64,000 bases of DNA from Novosphingobium sp. CECT 9465. Its GTDB lineage: Bacteria > Pseudomonadota > Alphaproteobacteria > Sphingomonadales > Sphingomonadaceae. The notes beneath the pieces were generated by a model. The model saw nothing but the letters and a program-made list of their open reading frames with translations, made no database searches and was not told where the DNA came from. The stretch lies in contig NZ_CAKLBX010000001.1 in assembly GCF_920987055.1 (NCBI RefSeq), positions 1,598,501-1,662,500 of the forward strand, read 5' to 3'. Both the position numbers and the translations under genes were made by a program. This document shows positions 29,830 through 39,159 of the stretch, piece after piece. Positions within the stretch are counted from its first letter, which is position 1; every line of letters begins with the position of its first letter.

Positions 29830-31095
29830 ATGCCCCAAATTGCCTTGCCTGCGCGAAAGTCGATTCTCGAACGTCTTGAAATACTTGCTGATGCGGCAAA
29901 GTATGATGCGTCCTGCGCATCCTCAGGCACGGCAAAGCGGAACAGCGTGGGGGCCAAAGGTATCGGTTCGACCGAAGGCATGGGCATTTGCCACGCTTAT
30001 GCCCCGGATGGGCGCTGTATCTCGCTGCTCAAGATACTGCTGACCAACCACTGCATTTTCGATTGCCACTATTGCATCAATCGCAAGAGTTCGAACACGC
30101 CACGCGCCCGCTTCACGCCGCAGGAAGTGGTGGATTTGACGCTGTCGTTCTATCGCCGCAACTATATCGAGGGGCTGTTCCTTTCCTCCGGGATCGTGAA
30201 AAGCTCCAGCCATACCATGGAGCAGATGATAGAAGTTGCTCGTATCCTGCGGGAAGAGCACGATTTTCGAGGGTATATTCACCTCAAGACGATCCCCGAA
30301 GCCGATCCTGAATTGGTCGCCCGCGCCGGGCTTCATGCCGATCGTGTCTCGATCAATGTCGAACTGCCCACCGTAGCGGGGCTGACGCGCCTCGCACCGG
30401 ACAAGTCCGCCACGCAGATTGAAGGTGCGATGGCTTCGCTGACGGATGCGATTGACGAAGCCAGGGATGCCCGCAAACGATTCCGTCACGCCCCCCGGTT
30501 TGCCCCCGCTGGACAATCGACGCAGATGATCGTCGGTGCGGATGCGGCAACCGATGCCGATATCGTCGGCCGGGCGAGCAAACTCTACGGCAGTTTCGGC
30601 CTGCGCCGCGTCTACTATTCGGCGTTCAGCCCGATACCGGATGCCAGCGCGGTCCTTCCGCTCAAGCGCCCGCCCTTGATGCGCGAACATCGGCTCTACC
30701 AGTCGGACTGGCTCATGCGCTTTTATGGATATGCCCCGCACGAGGTCCAGCAGGCCGCAGGCGCGGATGGAATGCTCCCGTTGGATATGGACCCGAAGCT
30801 GGCGTGGGCACTGCAATTCCGCGCGGAATTTCCGATCGACGTAAACCGCGCGCCCCGCGAACGGCTGCTGCGCGTACCCGGCCTGGGGGTACGCGCGGTG
30901 AATGCGATCATTGCAGCGCGGCGCCAGCGTCGCCTTCGGCTTGAGGATGTCGGCAAACTGACTGTCTCGGTCGCCAAGGTGCGCCCGTTCATTGTCGCAG
31001 ACGACTGGCGGCCGGTGATATTGGCCGACCGGGCCGATCTTCAGAGCCAGATTGCGCCGCCCCGTTCCGAGCAACTCGAACTGTTCGCGTCATGA
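29830..31095 (+). CDS. Putative DNA modification/repair radical SAM protein (TIGR03916-like)
   Basis: 421 residues. The radical-SAM motif C-x3-C-x2-C is in NHCIFDCHYCINRKSS (about residues 76-86). A C-terminal helix-hairpin-helix DNA-binding motif follows (INVNRAPRERLLRVPGLGVRAVNAIIAARR, about 337-366). This architecture is the family annotated as putative DNA modification/repair radical SAM protein; the reaction is unknown. Its stop overlaps the start of the DUF4130-UdgX gene (ATGA), its usual partner, and a candidate LexA box sits at its start. Confidence 0.9.
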   Translation: MPQIALPARKSILERLEILADAAKYDASCASSGTAKRNSVGAKGIGSTEGMGICHAYAPDGRCISLLKILLTNHCIFDCHYCINRKSSNTPRARFTPQEVVDLTLSFYRRNYIEGLFLSSGIVKSSSHTMEQMIEVARILREEHDFRGYIHLKTIPEADPELVARAGLHADRVSINVELPTVAGLTRLAPDKSATQIEGAMASLTDAIDEARDARKRFRHAPRFAPAGQSTQMIVGADAATDADIVGRASKLYGSFGLRRVYYSAFSPIPDASAVLPLKRPPLMREHRLYQSDWLMRFYGYAPHEVQQAAGADGMLPLDMDPKLAWALQFRAEFPIDVNRAPRERLLRVPGLGVRAVNAIIAARRQRRLRLEDVGKLTVSVAKVRPFIVADDWRPVILADRADLQSQIAPPRSEQLELFAS

Positions 31096-32525
31096 CGCCT
31101 GCACGCGCTGCCGGGCAGGCCACGACGTTTCGCGTTGCACTGGCTGCGCCCGATGATTTCGACGAATGGCGTGAAGTCGCACGCAGGCTGGTGCAGGCCG
31201 CTATTCCGCCTGAGCGAGTGGAATGGAAATCTTCTGAGGATCAGGCTGGTGATCTATTTGCGCAAGGCGACTGCCCCTTGCCGGAACCGCCTGCCGATGC
31301 ACCGCTTCCCAGGGCCTCGCGCGAGTTCGTGTTACTTGCCAGGAGCGTCATCCTTCATTCTGATGGAAAACGCTTTTCCCTGCTCTATGAAGTGCTCTGG
31401 CGACTTCAGGTGAACACGCAATTGATGGGCGATAAGGCCGATCCCCATGTGCGCCGGATCAATGACCTTGCCCGACAGGTCCGGCGCGATATCCACAAGA
31501 TGCGCACCTTCCTCCGATTTCGAGTGATCGATGAGCCAGACGGCGAGCGCTACGTTGCGTGGTTCGAACCGGACCATCACATCCTGCGGGCCAATGCCGC
31601 GTTCTTCGTGCGCCGGTTCACGACCATGCACTGGTCGATTCTCACACCGCGCGGCAGTCTCCATTGGGACAAAGAGACATTGCGCGAAGGGCCGCCCGCG
31701 ACACGTGCCGATGCGCCAACGGGCGATCCGGTCGAGGCATTGTGGCGGGGGTACTATGCATCCATCTTCAACCCGGCGCGTCTGAAGATCGGGGCAATGC
31801 TCAAGGAAATGCCCCGCAAGTATTGGAAAAACATGCCTGAGGCGACTCTGATTCCCGAACTGATTGCCGGGGCGCAAGCGCGGGAGGCACGGATGGTGAA
31901 GGCGGGCCAACAGGACGCGGGTGGGCGGCCCGATTCACTGGAGGGAATCGCGCAGGCCATTCAGGAATGCCGACGCTGCCAGATCGGCTGCAATGGTACG
32001 CGCGCGGTCATGGGTGAAGGGCCAGGCGATCCGCAATTGATGATTGTGGGAGAACAGCCGGGCGATCAGGAAGAGCGGCAGGGGCATCCCTTCGTCGGGC
32101 CTGCGGGGCAGGTGTTGCGATCCCATCTGGAGCATGTCGGTATTTCCAAAGACCGGACATACGTGACCAATGCCGTCAAGCATTTCAAATTCACCCTTAG
32201 CGGCAAGCATCGGCTGCACCAGTCACCCACCGCCGGGGAAATCGATACCTGCCGCTGGTGGCTGGAAGGCGAACGCGCACAGGTGCGTCCGCGAATTGTG
32301 CTGGCGCTGGGCGCCAGTGCAGCCCGCAGCCTGCTCGGCAGGACCGTCAGCGTCCAGAAGGAACGCTCGCGCGCCTTCCCGCTGGAGGATGGCAGCGAAC
32401 TGTGGATCACGACGCATCCCAGCTATTTGCTGCGCCTTTCCGACGCTGCTCGTGCTGATGAGGAGCACAAGTTTATCAATGACTTGCACAGGGTTCATCG
32501 ACGATTGTCGCAACTCCGGTCGTAA
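31092..32525 (+). CDS. DUF4130 - UdgX fusion, uracil-DNA binding/crosslinking glycosylase
   Basis: 477 residues. N-terminal part (1-270) is the TIGR03915/DUF4130 domain found beside the radical-SAM partner (LLYEVLWRLQVN, DKADPHVRRINDLARQVRRDIHKMRTFLRFRV). C-terminal part (about 290-475) is UdgX: CRRCQIGC with Fe-S-type cysteines, GEQPGDQEE, HPFVGPAGQVLRSHLE, and the R-loop GKHRLHQSP. H376 aligns with the histidine that in Mycobacterium UdgX forms a covalent bond with the abasic sugar after uracil excision. The pair may find and trap uracil in DNA during SOS. Confidence 0.9.
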   Translation: MTPARAAGQATTFRVALAAPDDFDEWREVARRLVQAAIPPERVEWKSSEDQAGDLFAQGDCPLPEPPADAPLPRASREFVLLARSVILHSDGKRFSLLYEVLWRLQVNTQLMGDKADPHVRRINDLARQVRRDIHKMRTFLRFRVIDEPDGERYVAWFEPDHHILRANAAFFVRRFTTMHWSILTPRGSLHWDKETLREGPPATRADAPTGDPVEALWRGYYASIFNPARLKIGAMLKEMPRKYWKNMPEATLIPELIAGAQAREARMVKAGQQDAGGRPDSLEGIAQAIQECRRCQIGCNGTRAVMGEGPGDPQLMIVGEQPGDQEERQGHPFVGPAGQVLRSHLEHVGISKDRTYVTNAVKHFKFTLSGKHRLHQSPTAGEIDTCRWWLEGERAQVRPRIVLALGASAARSLLGRTVSVQKERSRAFPLEDGSELWITTHPSYLLRLSDAARADEEHKFINDLHRVHRRLSQLRS

Positions 32526-32537
32526 GCGGCCGGCAGG

Positions 32538-35078
32538 TCAGGTACGCAGGCGCTCGATCCCCTGCGCCAGCGCCACGTAAAGCTTGCCCATGTCCGAAGA
32601 AAGCAGCGTAACGCCCAGCGCATTGCCATCGCGCGTTGAAAGCAATTGCCGCAACATCGTCTCGAAATCGTGGATGTAGCGATTGACGTGATCGCGGAAC
32701 TCGCTCTCAGCTTCATAGTGCGCCTGCACCGCCTTGGCCTCGGCAGCTTCAAGCAGCGATACGGCCCGCCGGGTGAAAATCCCCCGGTCGCCACGAAGGT
32801 ATGATGCCCACGCTGTTTCCGAAACATCGGCCGAGAGTGCCTTGGCAATGTCGATCGACGAGGAATTGAGGGATTCGGTGATCAGTGCGGCGCGGCGGGC
32901 GAAGTCATTGTCGACATGTTCCTCGGCCCGTTCGCGTGCCCGTGATACCCGTGCTTCAAGATTGCCGGCAAGCTCATCTACCAGTGTCAAGTGATCGCGC
33001 ATCTGGACCGCGGTTTCGCGGCTTGCCGATGCGGCCGCGTCGATCGCTTGTTCCAGTCGCCCGACCAGTTCGGCGGCGCGGCCCTGCAGAACGCGGGCAA
33101 CGGCAGCACTGCTTTCCTCGCCCAGCCGGGCCGCCAATGCCTCGATCTCGGCTGCGGTGCTGGTGCGCAAGGTTTGACCGGTCTCGCCCGCCGCTTCGGA
33201 AAGGCTCGCAATCGCGCCGGTCAGACGCGTTTCGATCTGTGCAGACAGCACTTCGCTATCGCGCTTGGCGTCGGACAGGACCTCACGCAAGCCTGCAATC
33301 AGGCCTTCGCGCTCGGCCATCTGTTCGGCCAGCATCTTTTGCGCCTTGGTCAGTTCCTTGAGCGTTGCGGCAATTTCGCCGCGGGCCAGTCCGACGTTTT
33401 CCGACAGTATCCGGCCACCATCGCCTGCTTCGCGCAGTGTATCGCGCAGGGTAAACACCCGGTCTTCCAGTCCTTTCAGCCCGGCTTCGGTGCTGCGAAG
33501 CGCTTCGGGAATTTGCGTTCGCGAATGATCGCCGCCTGCCTGGATCAGTTCGAGCAAGCGGACCGCCGAATCGGTAAGGTCACCGATCTGCAGATCGGTG
33601 CCTGCCAGCGCATGGCGCATTTCCGCCAGCCGCGTGTTCAATTGGCTCATGGCAGTATCGACCGTGGCGGCCGTTTCGGCACCTTGCTCACCCGATTTGC
33701 GAACGACATCGGAGAACGCATTGACCTTGCTCCCTATTTCCTCGCAGGTTTGCGCAAGACGGGCGGCCTCGGCCACTTGCACCTTGCGCTGGGCATCGAT
33801 GGCATGATCGAGCTCGGCGAGCTTTCGCGCGAGCGCTTCGGCAGCATCAGCGGCTGCACGTTCCATGGCGATGCGCCGTTCGGCAATCGCACCATCGATC
33901 TCGTCCAATCGGCTTTCGAGAAACTGTCGCTGTTGCGCGGCGGCCGCTTCGGCGGAGGCGCGTCGTTGCGCAAGCTGCTCGTCAAGGCTTCTGGACTGCT
34001 CCCCCAGAAGCCCCGTTAAGGACCGTGCCGATTCTTCAAATCGCGCGAGCCGTTCTGCAGACGCGGTCAGCAGAATCTCATGCTCTTTCGCCATCTGGGC
34101 CAGCGCCTCGCGCAAGCTTGCCATGTGCTGGTCCGACCGTTCGTGCCATGCGGCCAACGCTACCTGTTCGTTCCGCGCGGCAGCAGATGTGAAATCTGCG
34201 CTGCGAATCGATAGGGCATCGAAGCGGCTTTCGGCCAGTCCCGCCAGTTCCTCACCCGATCGCGCGAACTGTCCCAGTGCCGTGTCCACGCGCTCGCGCA
34301 GGGAAAGCACCTGCCGTTCGCTGGCAAGGCCGAATTCGTTCAGGCGCTGGAAGCCTGAAACCATTTCTTCCAACTGGAGGTGCGCGGTGCGCCCGGCATT
34401 GCCGATGTTGTTGGTCACGTCCTTTGCGGAATTGGCGATGACGGGCAATTGGCTGCGCAGCTTGTCCATGTTGTCGAGAGCGCTGGTCGAAACTTCTGCG
34501 ATCAGATCGATGCGCTGACGATTTTGTGAGACAAGGTCTTCCAGCTGTGCCGCACTTCCAGAAAGACGGTCGACCGCCACCCTGCCAAGCGATTCCAGAT
34601 CGCGTCCCTGGGCAGCGATAAAATCGCGCGCTAGCGAAAGTTCGGTGTTGAGACCGGCCAGTCGCTTTTCCAGCCGCGCCGATTCGCGCGCCAGCGAAAG
34701 TGAAACGTCGGAAAACCGTGCAGCTTCACGCTTGCTGGTGCGCAAGGCCGCCAGCCACAGCACTACAACCAGCAGAACCGGAGTCGACCATTGGGCTACC
34801 CACCATGCCCACTGCTGCGGTTCGGCCACATAATCGGATCTGGCAACGACGGCCCACGTAAAGAATGCCGTCCATATCGCGATTACCGCGACGGCGCAGG
34901 CGGGACCGATCCAGCTGCGATCGGGAACGGCGTCATCGACAGGCTCATCGTCAGCCCAGTCGGCAGCCGAAAGCGGGGATGCGCCTTGGTGCGCGTCAAC
35001 GCCCGAAAGCTCGCCTTGGCCGGCGTCCTGTTCGACGCTATCGATCGGAATTATCCGTGTTCCCCCGTTCATTGGCAT
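32538..35078 (-). CDS. Large coiled-coil membrane protein (TipN-like layout)
   Basis: 846 residues. An acidic cytoplasmic N-terminus (EQDAGQGELSGVDAHQ) is followed by two transmembrane segments (about 58-79 and 91-110), then about 700 residues of almost unbroken helical coiled coil with repeated Ala/Glu/Leu/Arg heptads (KRLAGLNTELSLARDFIAAQGRDLESLG, EAAAAQQRQFLESRLDEIDG). Two N-terminal membrane helices plus a long C-terminal coiled coil of this size is the layout of the Caulobacter polarity factor TipN; no sequence homology can be claimed by eye. It may organise a pole or division site. Divergent from the Hpt-like gene; convergent with the UdgX gene. Confidence 0.75.
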   Translation of the reverse strand: MPMNGGTRIIPIDSVEQDAGQGELSGVDAHQGASPLSAADWADDEPVDDAVPDRSWIGPACAVAVIAIWTAFFTWAVVARSDYVAEPQQWAWWVAQWSTPVLLVVVLWLAALRTSKREAARFSDVSLSLARESARLEKRLAGLNTELSLARDFIAAQGRDLESLGRVAVDRLSGSAAQLEDLVSQNRQRIDLIAEVSTSALDNMDKLRSQLPVIANSAKDVTNNIGNAGRTAHLQLEEMVSGFQRLNEFGLASERQVLSLRERVDTALGQFARSGEELAGLAESRFDALSIRSADFTSAAARNEQVALAAWHERSDQHMASLREALAQMAKEHEILLTASAERLARFEESARSLTGLLGEQSRSLDEQLAQRRASAEAAAAQQRQFLESRLDEIDGAIAERRIAMERAAADAAEALARKLAELDHAIDAQRKVQVAEAARLAQTCEEIGSKVNAFSDVVRKSGEQGAETAATVDTAMSQLNTRLAEMRHALAGTDLQIGDLTDSAVRLLELIQAGGDHSRTQIPEALRSTEAGLKGLEDRVFTLRDTLREAGDGGRILSENVGLARGEIAATLKELTKAQKMLAEQMAEREGLIAGLREVLSDAKRDSEVLSAQIETRLTGAIASLSEAAGETGQTLRTSTAAEIEALAARLGEESSAAVARVLQGRAAELVGRLEQAIDAAASASRETAVQMRDHLTLVDELAGNLEARVSRARERAEEHVDNDFARRAALITESLNSSSIDIAKALSADVSETAWASYLRGDRGIFTRRAVSLLEAAEAKAVQAHYEAESEFRDHVNRYIHDFETMLRQLLSTRDGNALGVTLLSSDMGKLYVALAQGIERLRT

Positions 35079-35143
35079 AGCCTACCACGATTTTGGCCAA
35101 GTCATAAACCCCGCCTTAACGGTTTGGCGCATAGCGCTTTCAC

Positions 35144-35449
35144 ATGGCCTACGAAGGCGGTTCTCTTGACGCAAACCTTGCTGCTGCTGCGGGATATGAC
35201 CCGGAGCTGGTCCGCGAACTGCGCGCGGCGTTCATCGAAAGTGCGGAACGACAGATCGATCTGCTCGGTCGTTCGCGTTGCGATGGCAACTGGCAGGTTG
35301 CGGCAATGCGCCTGAAAGGTCTTGCCGCCAGTTTCCACGCCGATGGTCTGCTCGCCCTTGCCGAAGAAGCGCTCGAAACCGTTCCGGGCGATCCTGCTAT
35401 CCTGCGCCGATTGCAGCGGATGATGGCCGACTTCGCGGTTGCTCCCTGA
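35144..35449 (+). CDS. Hpt-domain-like protein lacking the phosphoacceptor histidine
   Basis: 101 residues, helical, with the shape of a histidine phosphotransfer domain: FIESAERQIDLL for helix A, then AAMRLKGLAASFHADGLLALAEEALE for the core. In Hpt domains the core reads H-x-L-K-G; here position 55 is methionine (M55-R-L-K-G), so the phosphorylatable histidine is missing while the flanking L-K-G is kept. A histidine at 65 sits where small residues are usual. It might bind kinases or regulators without transferring phosphate. Divergent from the coiled-coil gene and first in a run of four genes. Confidence 0.7.
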   Translation: MAYEGGSLDANLAAAAGYDPELVRELRAAFIESAERQIDLLGRSRCDGNWQVAAMRLKGLAASFHADGLLALAEEALETVPGDPAILRRLQRMMADFAVAP

Positions 35450-35517
35450 CACTTGATCGACGCGCTGCTTGGCAGCAGCCGTCGCAGTCCCTACCATGTC
35501 CGTCAGGAGGCAGGCTC

Positions 35518-36792
35518 TTGCGGGTCGCAGTTTTATCGTTGATCGAGGCCGCCGGACCGGATCCGGGTGCTTTACGCGGATACCTGCCAATTGGCGGGCG
35601 TTCGATCCTGCGCCATCAGATCGGGTTCGCCCTGTCGCTTGGCTGCAAACGGATCGTCGTCATGGCGGAAGGCATCAGCGGCGAACTCGTGGCGCTCCAG
35701 CATGTGGTGGAGCGCGGCGGCGCGCAGTTCCACGTCGTGGCAACCGCTCGTGCACTCGTTCCGCTGTTGCAGCCAGAGGACGATGTCTTCGTGCTTGGCG
35801 ACGGGCTTCTCGCCATGCCCGATGCCTTGCGCGATCTGCTCGAAGCAGGACCCGTGCTGCTGACATTGCCGGTGGAAACCGCATTGCCGCTGGGATTCGA
35901 ACGTATCGATATCAACAGCGCCTTTGCCTTTGCCATGCGCTTTCCCGGACGCGTTGCCGCTGCCCTTGCCGATCTGCCACCTGAATGGAATGCCCAGTCT
36001 GCGCTTCTGCGGCTTGCGATACAGGCACGAATCAGCCAGCGGGGAGTGCCCGCTGCCCTGCTGGATGACGGCCGGTGGGCCATTGTCCGAAATGAGGAAG
36101 ACGCACATCGGGCCGAACGGCGATGGCTGCGGTTGCATACCGATGTGGCAGGTGCGGGCGCGCGGGCGCCGGGCGGGGCGATGGCGATTGCCATTGTCAG
36201 GCGCTTTGGTCCGGCGATGCTTCACGCCGGAACCCGGCCCGCGCTGGTCGGACTGGCGGCGGGGCTGGTTGGCCTGCTGGGTGGAGGAATGGGTTGGCTG
36301 GGCAATTTCGCTACCGGCTTTGTCCTGCTCGGTATTGCCTGGCTGATCGAACGGGTGGCCAGCCTGCTTGGCCAGGTCGAACGGGATTCGCTGCTGGCCT
36401 CCGGCCTTGCGCGCAGAAGCGTGGCGGCATTTCACGGACTGATCGATGTAGGCTTCGTGGTGGTCGCCACATGGCGCAGCGAATTGCCCAACGGGCCGGG
36501 CCTGGCTTGGGGGCTTTCCGCCTTTGCTCCGCTGTTGCTGGTTCTTGCCGCGCGCCTTGTGCCGCTGGCCTTGCCCGGCAACCGCTGGGCGCATTTCCTG
36601 CAAGACCGCCTGCTGATGGGCCTGTTTCTGGCCCTGGCGAGCGTGTTCCTGCCGTTCGATGCCATGGTCGGTCTTTGTGTCATCGCCATGATCGCGCTTT
36701 GCCTCTTCCTGCTCCAGACCGGCGCAGATATTGGTGCCACAAGGGACCCGGCGAAGCCTCCGCCTAACCCGCAGTTAACCAGTCGGCAGTAA
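35518..36792 (+). CDS. Nucleotidyltransferase-like/CDP-alcohol-transferase-like membrane protein without the usual catalytic motifs
   Basis: About 424 residues from a TTG start at 35518, chosen because CAGGAGG lies seven bases before it and the fold begins there (LRVAVLSLIEAAG). The N-terminal 200 residues read like a sugar nucleotidyltransferase (YLPIGGRSILRHQIGFALSLGCKRIVVMAEG, DDVFVLGDGLL) but the G-x-G-[TS]-R nucleotide loop is replaced. The C-terminal half has about five membrane segments, laid out like a CDP-alcohol phosphatidyltransferase (TRPALVGLAAGLVGLLGG), yet the D-G-x2-A-R motif is not visible (ERVASLLGQ instead). Probably an inactive or altered descendant; function unknown. Confidence 0.65.
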   Translation: MRVAVLSLIEAAGPDPGALRGYLPIGGRSILRHQIGFALSLGCKRIVVMAEGISGELVALQHVVERGGAQFHVVATARALVPLLQPEDDVFVLGDGLLAMPDALRDLLEAGPVLLTLPVETALPLGFERIDINSAFAFAMRFPGRVAAALADLPPEWNAQSALLRLAIQARISQRGVPAALLDDGRWAIVRNEEDAHRAERRWLRLHTDVAGAGARAPGGAMAIAIVRRFGPAMLHAGTRPALVGLAAGLVGLLGGGMGWLGNFATGFVLLGIAWLIERVASLLGQVERDSLLASGLARRSVAAFHGLIDVGFVVVATWRSELPNGPGLAWGLSAFAPLLLVLAARLVPLALPGNRWAHFLQDRLLMGLFLALASVFLPFDAMVGLCVIAMIALCLFLLQTGADIGATRDPAKPPPNPQLTSRQ

Positions 36793-36801
36793 GAGTTGCG
36801 T

Positions 36802-37770
36802 ATGGCATTGACCGCAACCACCGGCGTCGACACCGGATCTATCGATACGTTACTGAAGGACGACCTGTTCCATGCGGATCAGGCGATGCTCCACATGGGA
36901 CCTATCCTGCGGCATCTCCTGCGCAATGACGACAGCTCGATCTTCAGTGATGAAGTAATCGCGCGGGTGCGCGGCATGCTGGCCGACATTTCCCGGCAGC
37001 TTGTCCAGGCGCTGGGTGAGGCGGCAGGCCATGCCGACGCCGCCGCATGGGCACGCAAGGCAGGTCCCGGTCTGGTTGACATGCTGGCAGGTGATCAGGC
37101 TCTCCTCAATCACCTGCACATGCTGGCGGTGGAATGGCAGATGGCCGACAGGCTGCAAGGGCGCCTTGGCATCGATCCGGTACTGACCCCGCTGCTGCAG
37201 GATATCATCGCCGCGCACGATCATGATCTGGCGGCGCGCGGGATGAACCTTCTGGCCGCGCAGGCCCGGTTCGGACAGGCTATCCGGCGCATGCAAATTC
37301 CATTGGTCGAATTGCCCGCCGACCTTCATCAGGTAACGCTTACGACGATGCAGGCCTATGTCGCGCAGGATCCGTCAGGCGTTGCTGCTGCCGATCTGGC
37401 AGAAACGGTCCTGCGCAAGGCGCGGGCGCAAACGGCATCGCGGATCGATCTGCTGGCCTACGCCATTTCAGCCACCGCTGCGCAGCCATCGGCAACGCTT
37501 TCATTGCAGAACGCGGGGGTCGCCCTTTTCCTGACGGCGTTGAGCCTGGGAACCGGGCTGTCGCGCGAAACGGCCATCATGTGCAGCACCGAAAGCCAGA
37601 TGCCGCGGCTTGCCCTGTCGCTGGCGGCTGCGGGTGTCGGCAGGGAAGGCATTGTCGAAACCTTTGCCGCGCTCCATCCCGATATCGCTCTGCCGGAATC
37701 GCTGACGCAATTGCATCCTGATCGTGCCGCGGCCTTGCTTGCTTCGGCGCAAGCGGAACTGCGCGCCTGA
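36802..37770 (+). CDS. Hypothetical all-helical protein, possibly DUF2336-like
   Basis: 322 residues from the ATG at 36802 (a TTG at 36796 is an alternative two codons earlier). No membrane segment; Ala/Leu-rich helices throughout, with histidine-bearing stretches (FHADQAMLHMGPILRHLL, HLHMLAVEWQMADRLQ, DIIAAHDHDLAARGMNLLAAQ). The repeated-helix character and its place before a histidine kinase recall DUF2336 proteins of alphaproteobacteria; I cannot confirm this. Closely spaced with both neighbours (9 and 18 bases), so probably co-transcribed. Confidence 0.7.
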   Translation: MALTATTGVDTGSIDTLLKDDLFHADQAMLHMGPILRHLLRNDDSSIFSDEVIARVRGMLADISRQLVQALGEAAGHADAAAWARKAGPGLVDMLAGDQALLNHLHMLAVEWQMADRLQGRLGIDPVLTPLLQDIIAAHDHDLAARGMNLLAAQARFGQAIRRMQIPLVELPADLHQVTLTTMQAYVAQDPSGVAAADLAETVLRKARAQTASRIDLLAYAISATAAQPSATLSLQNAGVALFLTALSLGTGLSRETAIMCSTESQMPRLALSLAAAGVGREGIVETFAALHPDIALPESLTQLHPDRAAALLASAQAELRA

Positions 37771-37788
37771 GATGGCGGGCCGATCGCG

Positions 37789-39159
37789 ATGACCGCTGCC
37801 GGACCGATCCGTGCCCGCTGCGATGGCGCCGACCGCCTGATAGAGGCCGATGAAACGCTTGCTGCGCTTCAGGTGCGGCTTGGTGGCAGCTTTCCCGGCG
37901 TGATCGCGCTTCCCGGCCTGATGGCGCTTGTTTGCAAGGCGCGGCATTCGGGCGTCGCGCTGTCGGGTTTGCTGGTCGTGCAGGATGAACGCCAGCCGGT
38001 ATCCTTTCGCGCCCTGGCTGTTCCCGACGCCGACGGCACGTCCATCGAAATCACGGACTGGAAGCTTGCGGCAGAGGCCTGGACGACTGAAACCGCAGTT
38101 GCGGCCGCGGGCGAGGCACTGCTGCGCCAACTGGCCGAAGCCCACGTGGTTCTCGATGCCGAACAACGGGTGATTTCCGGCGTTGTCGATGCTGCGGACC
38201 TTGCCGACTTCGGCAGGGGCTTGCGCCAGGCTTTCGGGCGCTATTGGACTGATCTGGTAGAGCTACGCGAAACCGCTCATCGGCAGCCGCTTCATTGGCG
38301 CCTGCTCGATGATGCCGCTCTTGCCGTTCCGGGATCGTCGAGGCGGTGGAAAGCGCGACTGCTGCCGTTGCGGGCTGGCGGTTTCGAACTGCTGCTTGTG
38401 GCCGATACGGTGCTGCCCCGGATCGCGGCTGACGATGGTCCGCCGCCACAAACGCCGGATTTCAGAGGATTGCTTGGGCGGAACCTCGCGCCTGCGCTGC
38501 GTCAACCCATCAACCGCATCGTCGCCAATGCCGAAACGATCCGTACGCGCCTTGCCGGGCCATTGGCGGATCAGTATGCCGGCTATGCGGGCGACATTGC
38601 CGAGGCGGGCCGCCATCTGCTGGGGCTGGTCGAAGATCTTGCCGATCTTGAAACGGTGGAGGATGCGGGCTTCGATCCGGCACCGGACGAAATCGACCTT
38701 GCCGATTGCGCAAGGCGAGCGGCGGGAATTCTTAGCGTTCGGGCGCAGGAGCGGTCCATCGTGCTTGCTACACCGACGGCGAACGATCCTGCGCCTGCGA
38801 TTGGCGAATTTCGCCGTGTGCTGCAGATTCTCTTCAACCTGATCGGCAACGCCATCCGCTATACGCCCGGTCACACCACGGTTACGATCGAAACGGGTGT
38901 GGATGGCCAGACGGCCTGGCTTTCGGTGACCGACGAGGGTGAGGGACTGTCAGAGGAAGATGCGGCCAAAGTCTTCGAGAAGTTCGAAAGGCTTGGGCGC
39001 AGCGGTGATGGGGGCAGTGGGCTGGGTCTGTACATATCGCGCAAGCTGGCGCGCGCGATGAATGGTGACCTCTCGGTTCAATCCGCGCCCGGTCGCGGTG
39101 CCCGCTTCGTGCTCAGCCTTCCGGCAGACCGCGCGGCAAAAGCCAGCGCGGCGGGCTGA
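37789..39159 (+). CDS. Histidine-kinase-like protein lacking the phosphoacceptor histidine
   Basis: 456 residues, no membrane segments. The N-terminal region (1-215) resembles degenerate PAS-like sensors. The dimerisation helix aligns as RNLAPALRQPINRIVANAETI; where kinases have S-H-E-L-R-T-P-L-N, this has A-P-A-L-R-Q-P-I-N, so the histidine is P235. The ATPase domain keeps its boxes: NLIGNAIRYTPG (N), VTDEGEGL (G1), FEKFERLG (F), GGSGLGLYISRKL (G2). It can thus probably bind ATP but not autophosphorylate in the normal way. It ends one base before a convergent small gene. Confidence 0.85.
   Translation: MTAAGPIRARCDGADRLIEADETLAALQVRLGGSFPGVIALPGLMALVCKARHSGVALSGLLVVQDERQPVSFRALAVPDADGTSIEITDWKLAAEAWTTETAVAAAGEALLRQLAEAHVVLDAEQRVISGVVDAADLADFGRGLRQAFGRYWTDLVELRETAHRQPLHWRLLDDAALAVPGSSRRWKARLLPLRAGGFELLLVADTVLPRIAADDGPPPQTPDFRGLLGRNLAPALRQPINRIVANAETIRTRLAGPLADQYAGYAGDIAEAGRHLLGLVEDLADLETVEDAGFDPAPDEIDLADCARRAAGILSVRAQERSIVLATPTANDPAPAIGEFRRVLQILFNLIGNAIRYTPGHTTVTIETGVDGQTAWLSVTDEGEGLSEEDAAKVFEKFERLGRSGDGGSGLGLYISRKLARAMNGDLSVQSAPGRGARFVLSLPADRAAKASAAG

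Follow-up and report, generated by a model that had tools for sequence, protein, structure and literature searches.

Can an operon built like a phosphorelay keep a role once the histidines that should carry the phosphate are gone? The window analyzed here, a stretch of 64,000 nucleotides from Novosphingobium sp. CECT 9465, raises this question with a four-gene run at 35144-39159 that encodes a histidine kinase-like and an Hpt-like protein, neither with its phosphoacceptor histidine. The genes, the gaps between them (68, 9 and 18 bases) and the residues reported in a first-pass annotation made from the sequence alone were all confirmed. The run and its divergent neighbor comprise the following features.

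32538-35078, minus strand: CC846, 846 amino acids, coiled-coil-like and with hydrophobic segments at its N-terminus; neighbor of the Hpt-like gene in divergent orientation.
35105-35121, plus strand: direct-repeat element TAAACC-N5-TTAACG, between the divergent CC846 and Hpt-like genes.
35144-35449, plus strand: HPt-fold protein without the phosphoacceptor histidine (M55), from Pfam, alignments and a structure model.
35518-36792, plus strand: NTP, a membrane protein related to IPCT-DIPPS in which the D..DG..AR motif is absent, from a family profile and a pattern search.
36802-37770, plus strand: all-helical protein, a diverged DUF2336 homolog, from PF10098 matches in aligned homologs and a structure model.
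37789-39159, plus strand: pseudo-histidine kinase with P235 at the acceptor site and an apparently intact CA domain for ATP, from Pfam and alignments.

At 29830-32525, next to CC846, lies a pair of genes whose products look like a radical-SAM protein of DNA repair and a uracil-DNA glycosylase of the UdgX type.

The kinase-like protein (Pfam HATPase_c 1e-26, HisKA 1.1e-5) has the N, G1, F and G2 boxes of a HisKA kinase, and the H-box histidine is replaced by Pro235, the acceptor-site residue of the window's near clade. Among the 111 genomes read (kinases counted once per genome, at E < 1e-40, with G005 admitted as an exception), the acceptor histidine is absent in 102, where 12 other residue types occur: P 58, R 11, A 9, Q 7, T 4, K 3, E 3, G 2, S 2 and N, V and D once each, next to H 9. 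No tyrosine was found at this position in the 111 genomes. An alignment of 64 derived kinases reveals where constraint persists. The histidine is missing in 62/64, the E/D that follows it is gone in all 64, and T at H+4 is retained in 6 and P at H+5 in 62; the acceptor column ranks fourth most variable among 64 DHp columns. The ATP-site residues N, N, D, G, G, G and G (N-box N/N, G1 D/G, G2 G/G/G) are invariant in 64/64, with a further G1 glycine in 62/64 and the F-box phenylalanine in 59/64. The initial claim that all the usual catalytic residues are gone is thus correct for the acceptor histidines and for the CDP-alcohol motif of NTP, but not for the kinase, whose ATP site is intact.

A complete ATP site would also fit persisting phosphate chemistry, in which a different residue or protein receives phosphate in trans from the CA domain, for example His276 in helix alpha-2, present in 64/64 derived kinases and in 7/7 canonical relatives. 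Since His276 is equally fixed in the canonical kinases, however, it is no replacement acceptor, and the loss of the E/D after the acceptor in every derived kinase, together with the lack of any invariant histidine in the alignments of the Hpt and helical proteins, makes such chemistry very unlikely in our view.

The small protein encoded first in the run falls below the Pfam cut-off for Hpt (0.0022), and its structure model is matched best by HPt structures; the helical fold is present, and Met55 stands where the phosphoacceptor histidine is expected. With one Hpt-like protein taken per genome at E < 1e-3, the histidine is absent in 86 of the 94 genomes read in the bacterial family of the window. 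The acceptor residues are M 33, L 23, W 15, H 8, Q 6 and A 3, with six further residues found once each. Four of the eight histidines belong to genomes with canonical kinases (G007, G040, G085 and G150) and one to G005; the remaining three occur in a scattered way, in G034, G127 and G179. Other families of the order, with a match in 32 genomes, have the histidine in 12/12 homologs read. A search for a different histidine in the right place yielded no replacement in the Hpt-like protein and, in the kinase, the alpha-2 residue shared with canonical relatives.

The losses are shared across the family and not specific to one strain, homologs with histidines being found mainly in a seven-genome group and in other families, besides the scattered cases. 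A kinase-like match (E up to 1e-30) occurs in 159/199 family genomes, an upper bound, since the weakest of these matches (E about 1e-37 to 1e-42) may represent different kinases; two of them, in G031 and G077, come without a DUF2336-like match. An Hpt-like match (E up to 1e-3) occurs in 129/199, with both proteins in 123 genomes, the kinase alone in 36, the Hpt alone in 6 and neither in 34. Titled records that carry the operon, among them Novosphingobium capsulatum, N. nitrogenifigens, Sphingobium sp. SYK-6 and two Sphingopyxis, come from a set of 80 loci, of which 13 (L181-L193) were read, the other 67 being far weaker matches. The kinase acceptor is replaced in all 13, as is the Hpt acceptor in all 10 with an Hpt match.

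Gene order is conserved as a tendency. In the usual arrangement, CC846 points away from Hpt-NTP-helical-kinase, and a convergent citrate synthase gene often lies downstream; this order speaks for the first-pass interpretation. Obligatory clustering is not supported: the Hpt and kinase ends lie apart in nine genomes read at both places (G011, G044, G075, G081, G091, G118, G122, G149 and G186), where Hpt stays with CC846, and NTP is missing in two loci (L093 and L094).

The rare kinases that retain a histidine suggest what the operon derives from. Seven of the nine have canonical SHELRTP boxes (G007, G012, G040, G052, G056, G085 and G150), and each adjoins a DUF2336 gene. In a kinase tree whose root we set on these seven, a strongly supported branch divides them from the rest. 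The other two belong to the group g25 and carry the box IDHSFKPP; their sister has arginine. At least two changes are needed on the tree, one separating the canonical seven and one within g25. The g25 genomes (L077, L078 and L134) are three small genomes of about 2.1 Mb that retain NTP, DUF2336 and the kinase, with Hpt undetected; in two of the three a histidine occupies the acceptor position within a non-canonical box.

In other families, the histidine-bearing Hpt is divergent from CC846 in 11/12 loci read. Many of these loci continue with a gene for a receiver-domain protein (183 aa) and then one for a second protein with an Hpt domain (about 166 aa), both domains identified with Pfam and each gene aligned from seven loci; in L102 and L104 neither gene was seen. 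Within the family, the receiver-type and second Hpt genes occur in the same 4/199 genomes (G007, G040, G052 and G056), all with canonical kinases, and the canonical genomes G012, G085 and G150 are without them. G007 has the order CC846|Hpt-receiver-Hpt2-NTP-flgK-flgL-DUF2336-kinase, the full joined set that is found in this genome only; in this genome, which is 86% complete, a single frame covers receiver and Hpt2, whereas NTP, flgK and flgL are each broken up over several. G052 has receiver-Hpt2-NTP-(Wzi-like)-flgK-flgL-DUF2336-kinase with Hpt undetected, and G040 has CC846|Hpt-receiver-Hpt2 at one place and flgK-flgL-DUF2336-kinase at another. The likeliest ancestral state is the one with histidines, receiver and second Hpt, and on the simplest reading of these sequences the window run would be a shortened descendant of a phosphorelay-type operon. 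Its lineage lacks the receiver-type gene, the second Hpt gene and both acceptor histidines, and has kept the folds, the ATP-site residues and the open frames.

The receiver-type protein has asparagine at the expected acceptor aspartate (VISNWDM, where CheY has VISDWNM) in 8/8 aligned sequences (e.g., L101:5960-6508 and L113:8197-8745). It may itself be a pseudo-receiver, and the older relay may for this reason have been out of the ordinary even before the histidines were lost.

The combined loss of the two histidines in one operon, central to the first-pass annotation, is not strictly joint. G005, G034 and G127 have the Hpt histidine without the kinase one, nor does the distribution of the CDP-alcohol motif follow that of the histidines. 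An independent-pairs test of Hpt and kinase histidine loss gave p = 1; the losses are essentially nearly one event, and their correlation therefore has no statistical weight.

Whether the operon is kept for a function or is decaying can be judged from its rates and residues. At the closest genome pair, dN/dS is 0.04 for Hpt, 0.19 for NTP, 0.14 for the helical protein and 0.09 for the kinase; the other listed pairs give 0.24-0.73 at dS near 0.5-1. The derived proteins have also acquired fixed residues of their own. In the kinase (numbering shifted by one to the full protein; derived set without G005, G017, G024, G109 and G170), Arg243 is found in 54/59 derived sequences against Ala in 7/7 canonical ones, Arg401 in 59/59 against Gln in 6/7, and Tyr415 in 53/59 against His in 7/7. 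In the Hpt-like protein (groups without G034 and G127), Phe64 is found in 46/47 derived sequences against Ile in 14/16 of the comparison group. Upstream, the best match to a 12-position repeat motif is placed 20-24 nt ahead of the Hpt start in 34/47 loci without the Hpt histidine and in 2/19 loci with it, a placement expected by chance in about 5 of 184. The repeat of the window, TAAACC-N5-TTAACG, is CtrA-box-like, yet no regulon is visible in this genome.

The low dN/dS, the newly fixed residues and the positioned repeat argue against decay alone. An operon that is a relic of little function, kept by chance or for the sake of one gene, could explain why genomes differ in which parts they lack (the receiver-type gene, the second Hpt, the CDP-alcohol motif and, to some extent, also Hpt or NTP), and why 34 of the 199 genomes match neither Hpt nor kinase. 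It accords poorly with open frames across many genera and with the signs of constraint just given, and we regard it as highly improbable. The earlier judgment that chance decay is unlikely, the genes being intact, is strengthened by the closest-pair dN/dS and by losses common to the family.

NTP has no Pfam match alone, and its family profile (A2) matches the inositol-phosphate cytidylyltransferase/DIPP synthase structure 4mnd (E 3e-10). The CDP-alcohol phosphotransferase pattern D..DG..AR is found in 3/67 NTP homologs and is absent from the window protein; PF01066 is matched in 2/29 family members. In G085, G150 and G017, NTP retains the motif and is followed by genes for a myo-inositol-1-phosphate synthase and a MobA-like nucleotidyltransferase. 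In these genomes an inositol cluster (myo-inositol-1-phosphate synthase, MobA-like protein, motif-bearing NTP-CDP-alcohol transferase and Wzi-like protein; L079:7409-10636, L088:7783-11016 and L121:11563-14832) separates Hpt or CC846 from the DUF2336-kinase pair.

The window copy of the helical protein has no PF10098 match, its model is all helical (pLDDT 91), and 18/30 aligned homologs match the family (E up to 0.1, best 1.1e-52). It is probably too diverged for the Pfam DUF2336 model and homologous to that family via its aligned relatives. A DUF2336-like match is present in 60/69 kinase loci and is missing or too diverged in nine. The open-access literature searched yielded no paper on DUF2336. 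Genes for CheW and CheR, recognized by Pfam, stand close to a DUF2336 paralog in G040 (L112:353-8133), and the family may on this ground be linked with motility or chemotaxis. CC846 has no match above cut-off in Pfam and none in NCBIfam; its profile matches beside Hpt in the family Hpt loci read and in 11/12 other-family loci. Its layout, coiled-coil-like with a hydrophobic N-terminus, is reminiscent of that of the Caulobacter pole marker TipN.

These parts could be assembled into a mechanism as follows. The kinase-like protein would still bind ATP, and a nucleotide-dependent movement of its CA domain would reshape the DHp helical bundle, so that the signal passes by partner binding and not by phosphate. 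Its likeliest direct partner would be the DUF2336-like protein, encoded beside it; the Hpt-like protein would probably be an adaptor for CC846, with which it stays when the operon splits; and the inert membrane protein NTP could serve as an anchor or lipid-sensing scaffold. An ATP pocket that is invariant next to a highly variable acceptor column is what an ATP-gated, phosphate-free device would predict. The example of DivL, whose boxes are likewise intact and which binds an ATP analogue weakly (PMC4211667), counts against it. On this footing, we hold the chances evenly balanced that the operon is an ATP-gated, phosphate-free protein switch, with its putative input, output and partners as proposed. 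Its wider form, a phosphorelay turned within one bacterial family into a phosphate-free assembly of a pseudo-HPt, a DUF2336-like protein, an inert membrane enzyme and a coiled-coil protein, driven by nucleotide binding of a pseudo-kinase, we put forward tentatively, as possible but on balance doubtful.

Two further readings involve partners outside the operon. A pseudo-kinase can lower or redirect the activity of an active kinase by forming a heterodimer with it, as RetS does. The DHp region is kept here, RetS structures are among the structural matches, and such a subunit, having lost its acceptor, would be dominant negative, but no partner kinase was seen beside the pseudo-kinase in the derived loci whose genes were read, and this reading appears quite unlikely. 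In the other, the pseudo-kinase would act like DivL, reading a distant response regulator through its DHp-CA surface and informing another kinase, with ATP in a structural role only. The aligned kinase family matches the DivL structure 4q20 (E 2e-30) and keeps the proline at H+5 in 62/64 derived kinases, and DivL keeps all boxes except the acceptor and works without kinase or phosphatase activity (PMC4211667). Several active kinases match the family better than DivL does, however, the acceptor site is not tyrosine, and the ATP site is invariant where the CA domain of DivL is dispensable (PMC4211667). A DivL-like sensor is accordingly unlikely, though a more credible alternative than a decoy subunit.

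Single pseudo-histidine kinases are already known; this family allows a relay-type operon to be compared in two states, showing which parts are missing (the receiver-type gene, the second Hpt and both acceptors) and which are constrained (the ATP pocket, the HPt fold and the DUF2336 neighbor). This makes the role of ATP binding in an acceptor-less kinase a testable question, in laboratory strains such as Sphingobium sp. SYK-6, and shows that DUF2336, a family so far unexplained, is repeatedly found beside a kinase. No paper on the operon was found in the open-access literature searched, and the first-pass statement that no system of this kind had been described may hold for the set as a whole but not for pseudo-histidine kinases, of which DivL is an example.

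Among comparisons with known systems, NTP shares with IPCT-DIPPS (4mnd) profile homology over the membrane C-terminal part and a nucleotidyltransferase-like N-terminus, whereas the D..DG..AR motif is not found in 64/67 homologs. The Hpt-like protein has the helical fold of HPt proteins such as ShpA and HptB and R-L-K-G after the acceptor position, but differs from them in that most of the family replaces the histidine with M, L, W, Q or other residues. DivL, for its part, has a conserved tyrosine at the acceptor (alanine in one described ortholog) and signals via DivK and CckA (PMC4211667). Like DivL, the kinase studied here is alphaproteobacterial and keeps the DHp and CA domains with N, G1, F and G2 boxes while its acceptor histidine is replaced. 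Unlike in DivL, the Hpt of the same operon is also without its histidine, and the constraint is reversed: the acceptor site is free and the ATP site is frozen.
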